A DNA stretch of 64,000 nt from Pseudomonadota bacterium (GTDB lineage Bacteria > Pseudomonadota > Gammaproteobacteria > JAKAQQ01), in the NCBI GenBank assembly GCA_021798115.1, contig JAJZYM010000006.1, positions 26,627 to 90,626 of the forward strand, read 5' to 3'. Shown here piece after piece: positions 9,564-16,328 of the stretch. The notes beneath the pieces were generated by a model, which was not told where the DNA came from, did no database searches, and saw only the letters and a list, made by a program, of their open reading frames with translations. The translations under genes and the position numbers were made by a program. Position 1 is the first letter of the stretch, and every line of letters starts with the position of its first letter.

Positions 9564-11237
9564 TCATTTCTCCTCGGGGTTGCGGACGGTTCCGCCGCGG
9601 ATCCGTCCTCCCCAATTCTGCACGATGTCCTGGACGATTGGATCGTCGCGAAACGCCGTCTCGAGCGTCTCCTGGCTCTGTTCGTCGGCACGGCGTCGCA
9701 GGCGCGCGTAGGTCGGGAAATCGGCGTCTTCGCGAACGATGATCCGAAGATCACGAACCCGGCTGTCCCAGGAGGCGAGGGCATGCTTCAGCGTTTCTTC
9801 CGTCCGGGGGACGATGAGATCGGCGTGGGCCTTGGCCACACAGAGAACCAGACGACCCTCGGAATCGAGGTTCTCCCAGCCGAGATGAGAGGCGGCCTCA
9901 CGCACGATGCCCTGGAGCGGAAGACGCGCGACGGTCTCGGGCCAGGTCGTGGGGTCGAGCGGCGTAGGTTCCGCGCCATGAGGGGCCTCCGCCGGAGGCG
10001 GGGACGGAGGAGTCGAGGCGCGGGCCGCCGCAGGACGGACGGCGGTGGCGCGAGCCGGAGACGATGGGGAGCGGGGAGCCGCGGCCTCCGGGGCGCGGTT
10101 TCTGTCGTGTGTGCCGCCCTGTGCACGGGGGGGTGGGAGCGGCGCCTCGCCGCTGGCGGCCTCGAGCGCCAGGGGACGAAGTGCCACCATGCGAACCACC
10201 GCCATGCGCAGCACGGTGCGCGGATCGTCGCAGATCCGGAGTTCCTCGTACGCCTTGCAGGCAATCTCGTAGAAAAGTTGAACCGTCTCGGGGGCGAGTC
10301 GAGGACCCTCGCGCGTCGCCGCCGCGTCGAGCTGTTCGAGGGCGATCCGGGACAAAAGAGCCAGGAGGCGCTCGACGAGGACCCGGGGATCGAGCCCACG
10401 CTCCTCGACCTGAGACAGGAAAGACCGCACGCCTTCCACGTGTTCCTGCTCGATGTCGCGTAGGAGGGTCACGAGCCGTTCCTCGTCGATCGTGCCGAGA
10501 AGAGCGGCGATCTCTTCGCCCCGCAGTGTCCCGTCGCCGTAGGCGATCGCCTGATCCACGAGGCTGAGTGCATCGCGGAGGCTCCCTTCCGCCGCCTGGG
10601 CCACGAGCCGAAGGCTCTCCTTGTCGTAGCGGACGCCCTCCTCATCAAGAATGTGTGCGAGACGCGCACCCGACGCTTCGGGCGGAACCCGGCGCAGACT
10701 GAGGCGCAGACAGCGCGACAGCACGGTCGCCGGCACTTTGTCCGGGTCGGTCGTCGCCAGAATGAAGACCACGTGCGGCGGTGGTTCCTCGAGCGTCTTG
10801 AGCAGTGCGTTGAACGAATGTCCCGAAAGCATGTGGACTTCGTCGATGAGATAGACGCGGAAGCGGCCGGCCGCGGGCGCGTAGGGGACATTGGCCAGAA
10901 GCTCCCGCGTTTCCTCGACACGGGTCCGGGACGCCGCATCGATCTCGAGGAAATCGACGAATTGACCGGCTTCGAGCGCCCGGCAGGCCGGGCACTCGTT
11001 GCACGGCTCCGCGACGACCCCGCGTTCGCAGTTGAGAGCCTTGGCCACGAGCCGCGCGAGCGTCGTCTTGCCGACGCCGCGCACCCCGGTGAAGAGGAGC
11101 ACGGGATGAAGGCGCCCGCGACCGAGGGCATTCTGGAGGACGCGGACCGCCGGCTCTTGACCGACGACATCGGCAAAACGCTGCGGACGCCACTTGCGGG
11201 CCAGCGAGAAAGTCGTCGGTTCCGAAGCGGCCATCAT
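9564..11237 (-). CDS. dnaX: DNA polymerase III subunit gamma/tau
   Basis: Clamp-loader ATPase of the replicative polymerase. Seen: Walker A GVRGVGKTT, zinc-binding cysteines in EPCNECPACRAL, the DEVH Walker B (VYLIDEVHMLSGHSF), sensor 1 (ATTDPDKVPATVLSRCL), and a Pro/Ala-rich linker before the tau-type C-terminal domain (ETLKHALASWDSRVRDL). The ATG at 11237 overlaps the upstream DUF302 stop (TGATG). 557 residues; an A-rich slippery site for a gamma form was not apparent in the linker region. Confidence 0.95.
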   Translation of the reverse strand: MMAASEPTTFSLARKWRPQRFADVVGQEPAVRVLQNALGRGRLHPVLLFTGVRGVGKTTLARLVAKALNCERGVVAEPCNECPACRALEAGQFVDFLEIDAASRTRVEETRELLANVPYAPAAGRFRVYLIDEVHMLSGHSFNALLKTLEEPPPHVVFILATTDPDKVPATVLSRCLRLSLRRVPPEASGARLAHILDEEGVRYDKESLRLVAQAAEGSLRDALSLVDQAIAYGDGTLRGEEIAALLGTIDEERLVTLLRDIEQEHVEGVRSFLSQVEERGLDPRVLVERLLALLSRIALEQLDAAATREGPRLAPETVQLFYEIACKAYEELRICDDPRTVLRMAVVRMVALRPLALEAASGEAPLPPPRAQGGTHDRNRAPEAAAPRSPSSPARATAVRPAAARASTPPSPPPAEAPHGAEPTPLDPTTWPETVARLPLQGIVREAASHLGWENLDSEGRLVLCVAKAHADLIVPRTEETLKHALASWDSRVRDLRIIVREDADFPTYARLRRRADEQSQETLETAFRDDPIVQDIVQNWGGRIRGGTVRNPEEK

Positions 11238-11635
11238 CACGTGGGGGCGAGAGTGTCGGCGATCCTGTGGAGTTTCGTCCGCACCCGGTGGGCCACGGCC
11301 GCGATCTCGGGTTTGGCCACGAGTGCAAGAACGGCCTCCGGATCCATGAAGACGACATCGACACGCCCATCGGATCGCCCGCGGAGGACGACGTTGCAGG
11401 GCAGAAGGGCCCCGAGATCGGGATCGGCGGACAACGCCGCATGCGCTTCTTGCGGATTGCAGGCCCCGAGGATGACGTACGGGGGGATGGTGACGCCAAG
11501 TTTCCGGGCGAGCGTCTGCGCGACATCCACGGTCGAGAGAACGCCGAACCCTTCGGCCGAAAGCGCTTCCGTCACCCGCCGCCCGGCCTCCTCGAAGGGG
11601 CCGGGGATCGTTACGGAAAAGGTATAGTTTGACAC
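11237..11635 (-). CDS. DUF302 domain protein
   Basis: A 132-residue protein of the DUF302 family: it contains the pattern GVLSTVDVAQTLARKLG, YVILGACNPQEAHAAL and LLPCNVVLRG, with the conserved Asn-Pro-x2-Ala and Pro-Cys-Asn-Val positions. No enzymatic role is established for the family. The GTG at 11635 follows GGGAGGTCG and gives the natural domain start. Its stop overlaps the dnaX ATG, so a gene of unknown function leads the dnaX-recR operon here, which I do not recognise as a standard arrangement. Confidence 0.82.
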   Translation of the reverse strand: MSNYTFSVTIPGPFEEAGRRVTEALSAEGFGVLSTVDVAQTLARKLGVTIPPYVILGACNPQEAHAALSADPDLGALLPCNVVLRGRSDGRVDVVFMDPEAVLALVAKPEIAAVAHRVRTKLHRIADTLAPT

Positions 11636-11729
11636 GGTACCACGACCTCCCGGAGCACACCCTCCACGGTGGGGCGCCTCGCCCGGCGCTCCACGCGAAG
11701 CGGCCTGTCTGCGCCTGCATCGCCCCGCC

Positions 11730-11735
11730 AGTATA
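11730..11735 (-). promoter_or_regulatory. Candidate -10 box for the DUF302-dnaX-recR operon
   Basis: TATACT on the minus strand, 95 bases upstream of the DUF302 start in an otherwise GC-rich gap. No convincing -35 hexamer is visible at 17 bases, so this is weak. Confidence 0.3.
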
Positions 11736-12204
11736 ACGACGGAACCACCCGCCCCTCCCCCGCTTCGCGCACCCCCCGCCGAGATGCCGCACCAGAACGC
11801 CGACGTGGGATCATCCCACGGCCACCGGCGCGACGAGTGCCTCAACGAGCACGGGTTCACCCACCTGGTGCATGCCCGCCCCACGATCGAGACATGGCGC
11901 AGAGAAGACAACGAACAGCGACCGAAAAAGACATGGGGTGGGATGACCCCGTCCGCCGATGCCAGTCAACTGGCATCGACGACCATCAACCCCGGACTCT
12001 AGATTGACCCGCTACTGAAAACGGGGGACGTCGGAGCAACGCCGTGTGGACGATGGGTGTGGATGTGATTGATCCGGACGTGGCGGCAACAGCACTGAAC
12101 AGCTTTGCCTTCGACGACTTGCTGCGTTTCCGTGTCAGCTCTAACGTCAACTTAACTGTACGCACAGTTCTCGCGTCGCCGTCCCGGCACCGGCCGAGCT
12201 GTGA
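11736..12204. other. Gene-free stretch at the left edge of the accessory island
   Basis: No coding frame with family features was found. It carries two palindromes (around 11805-11819, and 11958-11977) and composition changes from GC-rich operon DNA towards a more mixed composition, so the left boundary of the accessory island probably lies here. Confidence 0.5.
11958..11977. repeat. 20-base palindrome
   Basis: GATGCCAGTCAACTGGCATC: 9-base arms separated by 2 bases. There is no T-run, so it looks more like a protein-binding site or IS remnant than a terminator. Confidence 0.55.
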
Positions 12205-12438
12205 GGCATTCCACCCATCCCCATCCGCTCCGCACCCGACGCCCCCGAGGACGCCGGCGACCCCGAGCGCTTCCAAGCCCTGTGGCAGGCCAACCGTGCC
12301 GTCGCTGAAGCTTATGGCTTCACCGCCACCGACCTCGCCGCCATCCTCGACACCTTCCCCGTCTTCGCCCGAAAACGCCCCTCTTTCCACGCCTACCTCC
12401 TCGATCACATTGCCGAATGGGTCAACGAAGCCCGATAG
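12205..12438 (+). pseudogene. C-terminal fragment of a large DNA methylase/restriction-type protein
   Basis: After an in-frame stop at 12202 the frame encodes about 77 residues ending in TAG at 12436-12438, without a start codon or ribosome site. The segment DPERFQALWQANRAVAEAYG, then DLAAILDTFPVFARKRPSF, then LDHIAEWVNEAR resembles the extreme C-terminus of Eco57I-like/type IIG methylase-nucleases as I remember them. Interpreted as the stub left after deletion of a large defence gene. The family call is from memory of the pattern only. Confidence 0.45.
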
Positions 12439-12478
12439 ACCGGCCTTCCCTACTCCCGGCCAGCGGCGGCGGTTCATC

Positions 12479-12510
12479 TTGCATTTTAATATTTGCAATG
12501 TTAAAATGCA
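12479..12510 (+). promoter_or_regulatory. Promoter overlapped by a 10-base-arm palindrome
   Basis: TTGCAT (12479-12484), 17-base spacer, TAAAAT (12502-12507), upstream of the GIY-YIG gene. The same DNA forms an inverted repeat with arms TGCATTTTAA (12480-12489) and TTAAAATGCA (12501-12510). A repressor bound here would block the promoter; the XRE/ImmA protein two genes later is the obvious candidate. Confidence 0.6.
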
Positions 12511-12544
12511 CTACGTCGAATCGTTCTGACCCAGGAGATTGGTC

Positions 12545-12832
12545 ATGACCAGAAAGACTGTCCCTTTCAACAAGACCGGTATCGGCAAACTGCCGAACAA
12601 CGCGCCCGCCACCTACCGAATCCAGACCGCCGGTGGCAAGACCAACTACGTCGGCGTGGCCAAACGTGGCCGCGTGCGGGAACGCATAGCCGAGCACCTG
12701 CCGGGCGCCAAGGACTACATTCCGGGCGCGAAAGTCGTCGTTGAACAACAGCCGAACATCGGTACCGCACGCGGCAAGGAAGCGCGCGCCATTCGGCGCG
12801 GGCAGCCGAGATACAACAGGCAGGGCAGGTGA
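12545..12832 (+). CDS. Small GIY-YIG-like protein
   Basis: 95 residues with TYRIQTAGGKTNYVGVAKRG near the N-terminus, matching the GIY-x-YIG core of minimal GIY-YIG nucleases, and the end EARAIRRGQPRYNRQGR. Proteins of this size and pattern are annotated as GIY-YIG family; nuclease activity is not shown. ATG at 12545 follows AGGAG with 7-base spacing. It is the first gene of a likely operon with the XRE/ImmA regulator 7 bases downstream. Confidence 0.6.
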   Translation: MTRKTVPFNKTGIGKLPNNAPATYRIQTAGGKTNYVGVAKRGRVRERIAEHLPGAKDYIPGAKVVVEQQPNIGTARGKEARAIRRGQPRYNRQGR

Positions 12833-12839
12833 GACAGCC

Positions 12840-13955
12840 ATGAGTGACCTCATCGCACGCCGACTGAAGTATGCGCGCGAAGCCAAGGGCTGGACCCAGG
12901 CAGAGCTTTCAAAAAAGTTCGGCTTCAAGGACCGCCAGACGCTGGCCGCCATCGAGGCCGGCCAGCGCAAGATGACGGCCGACGAATTGGTGCGCGCAAT
13001 TGACATCTTCAAGCTCGATCTCGATTTCTTCACCGATTCGTTTCGGCTGGTCGGCGAGGGCAGCTTCAACTGGCGCGCCGACCCGCGCGCGGCTGCCGGT
13101 CTGCACACGAACTTCGAGGAAAAGGCCGGCCGCTGGATCGCGACCTATCGTCAATTGGGCGAGGATCAGGGCGTCACGCCGACTGTGCTGCACAAACATC
13201 TGCCCTTGAACGTGCGTCACACGTTTGAGGATGCGATGGCTGCAGCGGAAGCGCTGGGGCGCGAGTGGCAATTGGGCGATCGACCTGCACAGAAGCTGGA
13301 GCAAGCCGTGGAACATGAACTCGGCGCGCTGATCCTGTACGTGGATGCACCGGCGGGTGTGTCCGGTGCGGCCTGCCAACTTCCAGGAATGAGTACGATC
13401 TTGATCAACCGCAACGAACCCGAAGGGCGCCGCCATTTCGATCTGGCCCACGAGTGCTTTCACCTTCTGACCTGGGAGCAGATGGCGCCGGAGCACACCG
13501 AGTCGATCGAAACCAGCTACCGGGGCAAGGGCAAGCACAAGCGGATCGAGCAGCTTGCCAACATTTTCGCCTCGGCGTTGCTCATGCCCGAGCGGGCCTT
13601 GAACCCGTTGTGGCAGGCGCGCGGTGAGGAAAACATCAACCGCTGGCTGAACCGGACGGCAAGCGCGTTTCTGGTGAGTGCACAGGCGCTCCGGTATCGG
13701 CTGAAAAACCTCGGCTGGCTTTCGAAAGCGGACGAACTCGACATTCAGGATACGGCACTGATCGCCAACGGCCGTCCGCAGATAGAACAGAGAAAGCCGC
13801 GCTTGTTCAACGAGGATTTCGTGCGGCGTGTGCAGAAGGCGATCGAGAACGGAGACCTTTCGGTGCGCCGCGCCGCCTCGCTGCTGGACTGCACCGTTGA
13901 AGACCTCGCAGACCTGTTTCGCGATTACGGCTTCCCCGTACCGTTCGATCTCTGA
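12840..13955 (+). CDS. XRE-family regulator fused to ImmA/IrrE metallopeptidase
   Basis: 371 residues. Residues about 1-65 form an XRE helix-turn-helix (LKYAREAKGWTQAELSKKFG, LAAIEAGQRKM). The middle carries the ImmA/IrrE (M78, COG2856) zinc-protease motif DLAHECFHLLTW with HExxH. The C-terminal third ends in helical segments (SVRRAASLLDCTVEDLADLF). Such proteins typically repress a target operon and cleave a partner repressor when a signal arrives. ATG at 12840 is the first methionine that gives a complete HTH. It lies between the GIY-YIG and PIN genes and probably autoregulates the promoter at 12479. Confidence 0.88.
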   Translation: MSDLIARRLKYAREAKGWTQAELSKKFGFKDRQTLAAIEAGQRKMTADELVRAIDIFKLDLDFFTDSFRLVGEGSFNWRADPRAAAGLHTNFEEKAGRWIATYRQLGEDQGVTPTVLHKHLPLNVRHTFEDAMAAAEALGREWQLGDRPAQKLEQAVEHELGALILYVDAPAGVSGAACQLPGMSTILINRNEPEGRRHFDLAHECFHLLTWEQMAPEHTESIETSYRGKGKHKRIEQLANIFASALLMPERALNPLWQARGEENINRWLNRTASAFLVSAQALRYRLKNLGWLSKADELDIQDTALIANGRPQIEQRKPRLFNEDFVRRVQKAIENGDLSVRRAASLLDCTVEDLADLFRDYGFPVPFDL

Positions 13956-13970
13956 GGCGAAGATCGGGTT

Positions 13971-14480
13971 GTGGATCGCGGTCAGGTCATCCTCGTGGAC
14001 ACCAACGTCATCATCGAATCGGTTCGCGTGAGCTGCTGGAGTGCCCTAAAGGCGCATTTCAGCATGGAAACCGTGGACAAGTGCTGCGAGGAAGCCCGCT
14101 CGGGCGAGCGACGCCGGCCAAATTACGTGGTCGTGGACGAGGATGCACTGCGCGTGGGGGTGAAGATCCATCCGGTTTCCGCGCGGGAACTGGCGACGCT
14201 TGCCGTGCACGACCCCGATTCCAGGGGGCTGGACGCCGGTGAGCGCCATCTGTGGGCGCATGCCCGGACGAGGGGCGACGCCTGGTTGGCGAGTTCCGCA
14301 GACCACGCCGCAGTCTGCTCGGCAGCACGCCTCGGGTGGATGGATCGTCTCGTGTCCCTCGAAGAGCTTGCCAGGACAGCCGGCGCCCATCGAGCTGCCG
14401 GGAAGCTGAAGGACCAATTCAGCACAGCCCGCCTCTCGAAATGGCGCACCATCATCCTTCTGGAGGGCGGCCTGTCATGA
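13971..14480 (+). CDS. PIN-like domain protein, putative RNase
   Basis: 169 residues. The N-terminus VILVDTNVIIESV carries the first PIN-domain aspartate; later acidic positions lie near LDAGERHLWAHA and the DAWLASSADHAAV segment, the usual order for PIN nucleases. GTG start at 13971, 15 bases after the XRE/ImmA stop. Its stop overlaps the ATG of the next frame (ATGA). Pairing of XRE-COG2856 regulators with PIN or other effectors is described among predicted toxin-antitoxin and defence loci; the target here is unknown. Confidence 0.72.
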   Translation: MDRGQVILVDTNVIIESVRVSCWSALKAHFSMETVDKCCEEARSGERRRPNYVVVDEDALRVGVKIHPVSARELATLAVHDPDSRGLDAGERHLWAHARTRGDAWLASSADHAAVCSAARLGWMDRLVSLEELARTAGAHRAAGKLKDQFSTARLSKWRTIILLEGGLS

Positions 14481-14722
14481 AGTGCTTTTCCGTTTTCGAA
14501 AGCGTGCGGCATCTCACCGAGCAATACCGCAGCTTCATCCCAAGTTCCTACCGGCTGGCCGATCCGGAGCTGCGCACCCAATTCGAGGAGCACGTGAACG
14601 GCACCGACGTGATGGTCAAGGGGCCGTATGTCACGCTGGCGCACGATTTTTCCCCCGAACGACCGCTGGCAAAGTTGCTGGCCAGGCGTGGGGCACCCGG
14701 ATCTCGCGCGATTGAACTTTGA
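14477..14722 (+). pseudogene. N-terminal fragment of a DEAD/DEAH helicase-like protein
   Basis: Starts at an ATG overlapping the PIN stop and encodes 81 residues before a stop. FSVFESVRHLTEQYRSFI, DPELRTQFEEHVNG and VKGPYVTLAHDFS resemble the N-terminal region of large DEAD/DEAH-box helicases found in defence islands (DUF1998/DISARM-like group), ahead of the motor domain. The motor motifs are absent: sequence similarity stops near LAKLLARRG. Interpreted as a truncated gene that was once co-transcribed with the PIN gene. Confidence 0.5.
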
Positions 14723-14728
14723 GAGTAC

Positions 14729-14875
14729 ATGTTGACCCAATCGCCGGCTTTCGCCCATCAGATCTGGCAGTCCAGCCAAGGCGAGTTCAACCCCGATGAG
14801 ATCGCGCGGGGCATGAAGATTGCGCGTCGCAACTATCGGGATATCCTGAAAGGCAAAAACCCCGCATTCCGCTGA
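14729..14875 (+). pseudogene. C-terminal remnant of an unidentified gene
   Basis: A 48-codon frame beginning with ATG (14729) and ending TGA: QSPAFAHQIWQSSQGEFNP, then DEIARGMKIARRNYRDIL. The composition and absence of a ribosome site suggest the tail of a longer protein whose body was deleted together with the helicase motor. Family not recognised; it could also be a genuine small protein. Confidence 0.35.
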
Positions 14876-14922
14876 CGGAAAGCCGCCTGCATCCCTAAGT
14901 CCGAAACCCACGACGATCTGAA

Positions 14923-15113
14923 ACGCCGCCTCGTACACCACCGCCGCGCTCGGGGGGCTTCCGATCGCCGGGGCCACGGCCCGTGGACGGGATCTTCCGC
15001 CCGAGCCCTTTCTCCTCGCGGTCCTCTTCGGGGCCAACCTGGGCGCCCCCCTCGCCTTCCCGACGGACGTTCTCGGGATGACCGCCGCGGGCTACGCTTT
15101 CGCCCCGCCCGCC
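14923..15113 (+). pseudogene. Decayed membrane-transporter fragment (SLC13/DASS-like)
   Basis: A GC-rich open stretch after a stop at 14920 reads TTAALGGLPIAGATARG and PFLLAVLFGANLGAPLAFPT, then DVLGMTAAGYAF, resembling the final conserved segments of anion:sodium symporters of the SLC13 type. No start, no upstream domain, and it runs into the convergent isomerase gene. Likely the 3' stub of a gene cut by the island insertion. Confidence 0.3.
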
Positions 15114-15143
15114 GGACGAGATTCCCACTCCAGGATCTCGCTC

Positions 15144-16328
15144 TCAGGAGAGCAGGAGGTCGCGGACCTCGTGACAGGCTCCCATCGTGTGGTAATCGCA
15201 TTTGCCCGCCGGGCTCTTCTCGTCGCTGTACTTGGTGTTGTCCCGCCGGAGGATCCGGTACCAGGCACCGTAGCGGTGATCGACGAAAAACTGCCAGGCG
15301 TACCGCCAGAGCCGGTCGTACCACTCCCAGTAGTGCGCGTCACCGGTGGCGAGAGCGAGGCGCGCCGAGGCGGCGATGGCTTCCGCCTGGACCCAGAAAT
15401 ACTTGTCGTCATCGACGGGGCTTCCGTCCGGGTCGAGCCCGTAATAGAGACCGCCGAAGCGCTCGTCCCACCCGAGCCGGACGTGGCGGTCGAAGAGCCA
15501 GCGTGCCCGCTCGAGGCGCCACTCCGAGGCACGCAGCCGCTCGAGGGTCAGAAGCAGTTTGGCCCACTCGATCTGGTGCCCGACCTGAACTCCCCAGGGG
15601 CGGAAGAGATGTTTGGGATTCTCCCGGTTGTAGTCCCAATCAATGTTCCAGTCCGCGTCGTAGTGTTCCCAGACGACGCCTCCGGCGAGTCCGCCCTGGC
15701 GGCACACGATGCGATCGGCGACGAGTTCCGCACGGTCCAGGAAGGCCGTCCGGCCCGTGGCCGCGTGGGCCGCGATGAGCGCCTCGCAAAGATGCATGTT
15801 GGCGTTCTGCCCGCGGTAAGACGAAAACACCCAGCGCTCGTCCGCCTCGTCGCGGTAAAGGCCGTGCGCGGGCTCGAAGAAGCGCTCCTCGAGAAGGGCC
15901 CAGGTTTCGTCGAGCCACGCCGCCGCCCCGTCGTAGCCCGCCTCGAGCGCCGTCGCGTAAGCCAAAAGCACAAAAGCCATGCCGTAGGCGTGGCGCGTGC
16001 GGTCCTCCGGGATCCCGTCCCGGAGGGTCCAGGCGTAGGCCCCCGTGGCGGGGTCGCGGTGAACCTCGCGCAGGAAGCGCAACCCGTGCTCCATCCGCAC
16101 GCGGTCGTCGGGATCGCCAAACGCCCACCACGCCCGGGCGTGGTTGACGACGAAACGCGTGCTGCTCACGAGATGACGGTGGCGCCGATCGTAGACGGTG
16201 CCGTCGTCCTTGAAATAATGGAAAAACCCTCCCGCCGGATCGAGGGCGTGCGGCCGGTAGAACGCGAGGATCTCGCGGATGTGTTCCGCGAGAAACGCGG
16301 GCGAGCGGAAATCAGGCCCGGCTCGCAC
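15144..16328 (-). CDS. AGE-family epimerase, probable D-mannose isomerase
   Basis: 394 residues of the (alpha/alpha)6-barrel N-acylglucosamine 2-epimerase superfamily: VSSTRFVVNHARAWWAFG, RHAYGMAFVLLAYATALEAG, YRGQNANMHLCEALIAAH and VGHQIEWAKLLLTLERL are typical positions. Substrate cannot be read directly, but the operon (fructokinase-like kinase and hexose transporter) and the divergent alpha-mannosidase argue for mannose to fructose isomerisation; YihS-like or cellobiose epimerase roles are alternatives. GTG at 16328 overlaps the kinase gene by 17 bases; the longer frame upstream has no family residues. Confidence 0.83.
   Translation of the reverse strand: MRAGPDFRSPAFLAEHIREILAFYRPHALDPAGGFFHYFKDDGTVYDRRHRHLVSSTRFVVNHARAWWAFGDPDDRVRMEHGLRFLREVHRDPATGAYAWTLRDGIPEDRTRHAYGMAFVLLAYATALEAGYDGAAAWLDETWALLEERFFEPAHGLYRDEADERWVFSSYRGQNANMHLCEALIAAHAATGRTAFLDRAELVADRIVCRQGGLAGGVVWEHYDADWNIDWDYNRENPKHLFRPWGVQVGHQIEWAKLLLTLERLRASEWRLERARWLFDRHVRLGWDERFGGLYYGLDPDGSPVDDDKYFWVQAEAIAASARLALATGDAHYWEWYDRLWRYAWQFFVDHRYGAWYRILRRDNTKYSDEKSPAGKCDYHTMGACHEVRDLLLS

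Follow-up and report, generated by a model that had tools for sequence, protein, structure and literature searches.

Several described defence systems and toxin-antitoxin modules share parts with the locus considered here, a cassette of three compact genes (encoding a GIY-YIG-like protein, an XRE-ImmA regulator and a PIN-domain protein) in a stretch of 64,000 nucleotides, referred to below as the window, from a Pseudomonadota bacterium (GenBank assembly GCA_021798115.1, contig JAJZYM010000006.1). The gene content of ARMADA, as given in the accessible sections of its description (Bell et al., 2025; PMC12458937), defines a layout that matches the full-operon relatives of the window: a SNF2/BrxHII-type helicase, a PglX/DrmMI-like methylase and a YprA helicase that is Druantia-like and ends in a Vsr-like nuclease domain. 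These relatives differ in placing an XRE-ImmA gene and a PIN gene between methylase and helicase, and the window differs in retaining only stubs of the big genes; ImmA, XRE, PIN and GIY are unmentioned in the accessible main text of that paper, the supplements lying outside the search. Class 1 DISARM operons have the same XRE-ImmA/PIN pair before drmA-drmB (31 de-duplicated loci), but their helicase and DUF1998 parts are split as drmA and drmB, whereas in the window the stub has its matches among helicases of the fused YprA/DruE type. A 2009 study (PMC2701414) already listed fusions of XRE and COG2856 domains next to PIN genes, and RosmerTA and the association of ImmA with PIN were described in 2023 (PMC10440598); according to the accessible parts of these two papers, an ImmA-domain helix-turn-helix (HTH) regulator adjoins a PIN nuclease in such pairs, also on phages and plasmids. 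The window-type pair differs from them in being built into a larger operon with a common, defined operator, and PADLOC has no model for its PIN protein. CapH with CapP, and CapW, are regulators that adjoin immune operons, and regulators are also known beside DISARM (PMC13373217, in the sections available); CapH and CapP resemble the present case in that an HTH repressor and an ImmA-like protease govern an immune operon, but in the window HTH and protease are joined in one protein, which is followed by a PIN gene.

An ARMADA-type (DISARM-like) anti-phage operon has probably eroded here, leaving the cassette as its intact control segment, which would include an XRE-ImmA switch and a PIN ribonuclease (RNase) restrained by it. 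The features of the locus are as follows.

11791–15093, no strand: inserted segment, missing from the same-genus genome G001 and lower in G+C than its flanks
12095–12438, + strand: remnant of the C-terminus of a DrmMI-like methyltransferase of ARMADA type, with a readable frame at 12205–12438, broken upstream
12479–12498, + strand: candidate operator TTGCA-N10-TGCAA, exact, its left half doubling as the -35-like hexamer TTGCAT (12479–12484)
12480–12510, no strand: larger palindrome with 14-nt arms and a 3-nt gap, spanning operator and -10-like TAAAAT (12502–12507)
12545–12832, + strand: GIY-YIG-like protein, 95 amino acids (aa), optional accessory gene (residue conservation in relatives, sub-threshold PF01541 match)
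12840–13955, + strand: fusion of XRE HTH and ImmA/IrrE zincin, 371 aa (Pfam, PADLOC, AlphaFold), predicted autorepressor/antitoxin
13971–14480, + strand: PIN-domain nuclease, 169 aa, GTG start (fold and acidic residues), predicted RNase toxin/effector
14477–14718, + strand: N-terminal remnant of a YprA/DruE-type (ArmC-like) helicase, 81 aa, by homology; frameshifted near its end (open reading frame to 14722), then truncated
14729–14875, + strand: 48-aa open reading frame (ORF), possibly another gene fragment, with no family match

The parent operon can be recognized from relatives of the XRE-ImmA protein, found at 89 loci (the window, 5 on plasmids, 3 from genome searches and 80 from a scan of GTDB genomes, these being the best 80 of 285 confirmed). 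After removal of four duplicates and one minus-strand locus, 84 remained, the layouts of which were assigned with our own profile searches: 7 have a complete fused helicase, 31 are DISARM loci and 1 a broken DISARM locus, 34 have neither (solo loci), 7 lie on contigs too short to be classified and 4, including the window, are remnants. The fused helicases of the seven complete loci are 1727–1810 aa long, and methylase and SNF2 genes lie upstream as far as the contigs extend (the SNF2 gene is at the edge of the stretch in L014 and beyond it in L015). The full order is SNF2 helicase (DrmD-like), DrmMI-like methylase, optional cargo, XRE-ImmA, PIN and a DruE/YprA-like helicase ending in an MTES_1575/DUF559 nuclease domain. 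At L010 the matches were DrmD (2.8e-132), DrmMI (3.9e-101), DruE (9e-143) and Vsr (1.6e-5), and the L012 helicase matched DruE at 8e-148. In Type II ARMADA a GajB-like helicase with a RelE domain comes behind the YprA gene; among the relatives, no large ORF on the same strand comes directly after this gene in L007, L008, L012, L015 or L016, and one of 415 aa follows it in L014, while the L010 contig ends shortly after it. As annotated by homology, the pair in full operons comes after the methyltransferase and before the YprA-type helicase, and the end of PIN usually shares 4 nt with the start of the helicase gene (6/7 ARMADA and 23/31 DISARM loci). The sequence-only reading had proposed a search for a full helicase behind PIN, and the closest relatives, among these seven loci, have one. 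In the 31 DISARM loci the pair follows the methyltransferase, directly or after further genes, and precedes drmA-drmB, although some contigs stop short of a flanking gene. Five plasmids carry adjoining XRE-ImmA and PIN genes, three of them in DISARM operons just before drmA-drmB and two with no DISARM gene nearby; the helicase stub and the GIY-YIG-like protein, used as queries in the plasmid search, gave no match.

In the window, the GIY-YIG-like, XRE-ImmA and PIN genes are all open and intact, and the ATGA start of the helicase stub overlaps the PIN stop by 4 nt. The promoter-like elements with the nested candidate operator, the regulator, PIN and the helicase are arranged as one segment suited to joint transcription. 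The methylase and helicase sequences are, judging from their homologues, stubs of the eroded operon, with the trio as its intact remainder. The methylase remnant matches L010 DNA over 420 bases at 78% identity, and the L010 methyltransferase at 5.6e-32 (phmmer); the methylase is represented in the whole genome by this fragment only, with internal stops. The helicase stub is 68–73% identical to the full 1727–1810 aa helicases, and its final codons match the relatives in another frame; the genome-wide search found no complete copy of the helicase in the window's own genome, and the armA profile had no match within window positions 11001–16000. An identity of the stub as DrmA was considered and ruled out, since it matches the fused DruE/YprA type instead, and the pair in the window is not followed by the separate drmA and DUF1998 drmB genes of class 1 DISARM. 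The stubs described in the sequence-only reading are thus borne out by homology for methylase and helicase, whereas the last one (14729–14875) has no match in the family libraries or the fetched loci, and plasmids gave a weak relaxase match (E 0.9, two plasmids). The proposal that the cassette had survived while a larger helicase/methylase defence locus decayed agrees with these comparisons, the closest relatives holding a complete operon where the window holds stubs.

The sequence-only reading had placed an ImmA metallopeptidase-regulator beside a nuclease, and both predictions are backed by domain and fold matches. The XRE-ImmA protein matches HTH_3 (5.5e-11) and Peptidase_M78 (4.8e-15) in Pfam and RmrA (7.4e-26) in PADLOC, and the HExxH motif is intact (H204, E205, H208). 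Its AlphaFold model (pLDDT 90.1) has fold matches to PprI, CapP (7t5t) and the HTH domains of C.AhdI and ImmR; the HTH domain superposes on C.AhdI at a root-mean-square deviation of 1.3 Å over 63 columns, although many other XRE domains were also matched. The PIN protein has no family match in Pfam, NCBIfam or PADLOC, but its model (pLDDT 94.9) has PIN/VapC proteins as top PDB matches (5h4h, 1v8o, 4chg) with probabilities of 0.99–1.00, the best Foldseek E-value being only 2.9e-3. The acidic residues D10, E41, D88 and E91 are kept in 72/72 copies and D111 in 71/72 (near-full-length copies from the 84 de-duplicated loci, 12 with a partial or missing PIN being left out), and the gene is thus predicted to encode a PIN/VapC-fold protein with an acidic active site. 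These counts, and the invariant GIY-YIG-like columns described below (6/6), bear on the question raised earlier of whether the catalytic residues persist in alignment.

XRE-ImmA and PIN form an almost inseparable pair, and this pair is the core conserved unit. PIN lies directly 3′ of XRE in 87/89 loci (the exceptions are L052 and L074), and the gap is below 30 nt in 83. The reverse approach, a PIN-profile search, found the gene in 4/56 relatives and 5/398 genomes of the phylum, the window's own genome being counted in both; outside that genome, XRE is directly upstream in 7/7 of the loci found by PIN, one of which (L095) looks like the L055 contig again. In IMG/VR, 42 of the 68 XRE matches are full-length and PIN is present in 38 of these 42; in contrast, GenBank phages have distant XRE-ImmA relatives only (14 records, 3 of them covering 80%). 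The recurrence of the trio expected in the sequence-only reading is therefore seen for the pair, and not for GIY-YIG, which is found in 6/89 loci only. A free-standing three-gene system is ruled out by this count, and the trio is better described as the control segment of an ARMADA-type operon.

The sequence-only reading had described a promoter overlapped by a palindrome before three compact genes; the palindrome TGCATTTTAATATT / AATGTTAAAATGCA (12480–12510) has 14-nt arms with 13/14 positions paired and beat all 40 composition shuffles of the stretch, and on direct reading of the sequence it overlaps a promoter-like pair, TTGCAT-N17-TAAAAT (12479–12507). In scans of the stretch before XRE, or before GIY at loci with that gene ahead of XRE, TTGCA-N10-TGCAA was found exactly in 40/84 regions and with at most one mismatch in 70/84, against shuffle means of 0.05 and 0.55; the repression suggested earlier for this promoter gains support from the candidate operator in these 70 regions. 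A half-site spacing of 10 occurs in 70 loci and one of 9 in 20, and every other spacing from 2 to 20 in at most 9. When the first 30 nt of the gene are included the count is 71/84 (DISARM 31/31, ARMADA 4/7, remnants 4/4, solo 26/34). In the alignment the site lengthens to TCTTGCA-N10-TGCAAGATTA, and a -10-like TATA is conserved at offset 23, 17 nt past the TTGCAW hexamer; the conserved candidate operator sits between the -35-like and -10-like elements of the pair's promoter. An exact match to the operator pattern occurs just once in the 1.88 Mb genome, at TTGCATTTTAATATTTGCAA in the window; read backward as a control, the pattern also gives one match. A second operator before the first gene of the operon was looked for and is essentially absent: of the 27 loci whose sequence includes the drmD/armA start, 1 has the site, with one mismatch, in the region from 400 nt before that start to 60 nt into the gene. 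The XRE-PIN-helicase half of the operon thus carries the candidate operator, and the SNF2-methylase half, in 26/27 loci, does not. The C proteins of type II restriction–modification (R-M) systems are similar in having an XRE HTH (C.AhdI) and a palindromic operator that is confined to the promoter of the restriction half; they are not known to have a protease domain or a PIN partner. A CAA is also conserved about 10 nt before the operator across 71 aligned upstream regions (the window lacks it), and this raises the possibility of an extra half-site, in a two-dyad layout like that of C-protein operators.

The following mechanism is proposed. XRE-ImmA dimers would bind TTGCA-N10-TGCAA and shut off their own XRE-PIN-helicase segment, while the SNF2-methylase segment would be expressed from a separate promoter, as with R-M controller proteins. 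A signal, most likely single-stranded DNA or DNA damage as for CapP/CapH, would activate the ImmA zincin, the HTH would be inactivated, and helicase and PIN would be derepressed. PIN would be an RNase restrained by XRE-ImmA, serving as a fail-safe or addiction element; in the window genome, the remaining switch and PIN (with GIY-YIG) would form at most a RosmerTA-like toxin-antitoxin pair. Autorepression by XRE-ImmA, its zincin-mediated release (by analogy with CapP/CapH and ImmA/ImmR) and the RNase role of PIN are steps that we infer, as are the signal release and toxicity put forward in the sequence-only reading. A broader version can be offered only tentatively: a single mobile pair with its operator may have been built into the same slot of ARMADA and class 1 DISARM as a damage-released controller, which would silence the helicase/nuclease half while the methylase half is expressed constitutively; the PIN RNase would be a fail-safe, punishing any loss or sabotage of the switch, and for that reason would outlast the operon once the large genes are deleted.

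If the control segment is as proposed, it would bear on the silencing and switch-on of DISARM and ARMADA operons, which is little treated in the accessible parts of the literature cited here. One operator motif and one regulator-PIN pair in both systems make this control directly testable with one reporter and provide a sequence handle for locating controlled operon copies; they also connect toxin-antitoxin pairs with the control of restriction-like systems, and suggest a reason why fragments of defence islands persist. The association of XRE-ImmA with PIN is already known, whereas its placement inside ARMADA and DISARM, the common operator and the remnants were not found in the open-licence literature searched, which did not cover the original DISARM paper.

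Several observations weigh against the control-segment interpretation, which rests on sequence and predicted structure rather than bench work. The TTGCAT/TAAAAT pair is not among the sites listed by a simple scan for the sigma-70 consensus, and the promoter therefore rests on the comparison across loci. Four of the seven full ARMADA loci (L007, L014, L015 and L016) have no operator within one mismatch in the scanned upstream stretch. YprA-like helicases (E ≤ 1e-40) occur in 24/398 genomes of the phylum with PIN in 0/24, and the helicase relatives on viral contigs lack XRE in 3/3 cases; the pair therefore belongs to a subset of ARMADA and not to ARMADA at large. In the class sample a close helicase was found in 1/369 genomes, apparently the L010 genome. 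In five near-identical Mesorhizobium loci (L064, L065, L068, L069 and L071, one de-duplicated locus), drmA is in four pieces and PIN is truncated while XRE is intact. Lastly, the decay of the window operon seems recent, as discussed below, so that the three genes being intact counts for little as evidence that they function today or are kept by selection.

The strongest rival, to which we give somewhat less than an even chance, is that the pair is a plain toxin-antitoxin module of the RosmerTA or XRE-COG2856-PIN type hitch-hiking in defence operons and mobile DNA, with any effect on the helicase due to incidental read-through and the window copy kept by addiction. In its favour are the 34/84 de-duplicated loci, from many phyla, whose fetched flanks contain neither a DISARM nor an ARMADA gene, the solo pairs on plasmids and viral contigs, and a PIN that looks intact in 27/34 solo loci. 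The window does have an RmrA-type antitoxin match in PADLOC beside a putative toxin gene, and the ImmA-PIN association is published (PMC10440598, in its accessible part). The fixed slot between methylase and helicase, the 4-nt overlap and the lack of the operator before the first gene suggest, however, integration in operon control; XRE is kept while PIN is lost or damaged in the L064 group, L074 and L052, and toxicity is only putative. The XRE tree, built by a quick method from 84 rows that span, by record title, twelve or more phyla, requires at least 9 changes for the label ‘solo’ and at least 5 for ‘DISARM’, or 5 and 1 if the starred branches alone are trusted. Two kinds of mobile context were also noticed. 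On three IMG/VR contigs that are putative phages (L173, L141 and L151), the pair lies near a serine recombinase with a protein of about 755 aa downstream, and in L173 it stands between the serine integrase and the anti-repressor Ant; XRE-ImmA may be a lysogeny repressor on these putative phages. The solo pairs of L054, L066 and L080 follow an ORF of 961–992 aa, the start of which is conjugative-relaxase-like by eye.

A second rival, possible but further from probable, regards the window cassette as debris of a recently acquired and recently deleted defence island, the genes of which have not yet decayed. The insert has a G+C content of about 60–64% over most of its length, against 66% for the window, and it corresponds to an empty site in the same-genus genome G001: window positions 10590–11790 and 15094–15869 align there at 94.8% and 91.0% identity (flanks thus 91–95% identical), with 18 bases between the equivalents of the 11790 and 15094 sides. 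There are further apparent gene fragments at both insert ends. The identity of the helicase stub to intact helicases (68–73%) is much like that among the intact copies themselves (68–72%), and the deletion would therefore be recent. A visible decay of GIY, XRE and PIN was considered and dropped, as none has excess divergence on the window side relative to L007 and L008, although the stub shows none either; for XRE, identity is 75% between window and L007 and 73% between L007 and L008, with 0.175 nonsynonymous (dN) and 1.26 synonymous (dS) substitutions per site between window and L007. This rival has more difficulty with three adjoining genes, promoter and operator all being intact, and with similar survivals elsewhere. 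The L009 remnant consists of a methylase end, XRE, PIN and a 54-aa helicase start, L017 has a helicase stub after PIN, and L018 a truncated PIN with a broken helicase; L009 and L017 have thus retained XRE and PIN by helicase stubs of their own. In the XRE tree the window is sister to the full operon L007 (support 90), then L008 (93), in a starred group of five that includes L009. Full operons thus separate the window from L009 on this tree, and the two most likely represent independent losses of the operon. Loci found by XRE favour such cases, and the survey therefore cannot show XRE outliving the rest of the operon; it shows PIN usually staying with XRE.

It is unlikely that PIN, rather than being a toxin, is a nuclease subunit dedicated to the helicase machinery and translated together with it. 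The ATGA-type overlap with drmA/armC and the intact PIN of 31/31 DISARM and 7/7 ARMADA loci would fit such a role, but PIN accompanies XRE and not the helicase in solo loci, and the 24 genomes with other YprA-like helicases all lack it.

As to the remaining gene of the control segment, the GIY-YIG-like protein is an optional passenger of the XRE-ImmA/PIN pair, because a model built on its six copies matches just those six among the 89 loci and because other genes fill the slot in some relatives. Its PF01541 score in the window is 0.084, below the cut-off (two relatives have 0.003–0.004), but it is 60–77% identical to five relatives at the same operon position, and columns Y24, Y35, R43, H51, E79 and N91, which we take to be the GIY-YIG catalytic positions, are invariant in all six copies. 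The slot between methylase and XRE holds other cargo in ARMADA relatives: ThsB-type TIR proteins (L007:8646–9969 and L015:4027–4515), SMC-like ATPases (L014:5979–10008 and L016:6842–9313) and a Schlafen AlbA_2 protein, also in L014.

Three minor observations concern the insert and its counterpart. At its left edge, a 72-aa ORF (11784–12002, + strand) seems by its motif to resemble the C-terminus of an IS3-family transposase, and it may mark the route of the island's arrival or decay. The right end of the insert (14880–15093) has a by-eye likeness to a short piece of a transporter gene. Genome G001 has a solo XRE-ImmA/PIN pair of its own on contig C66 (L096), from another branch of the tree, about 45 kb from its empty site on the same contig.

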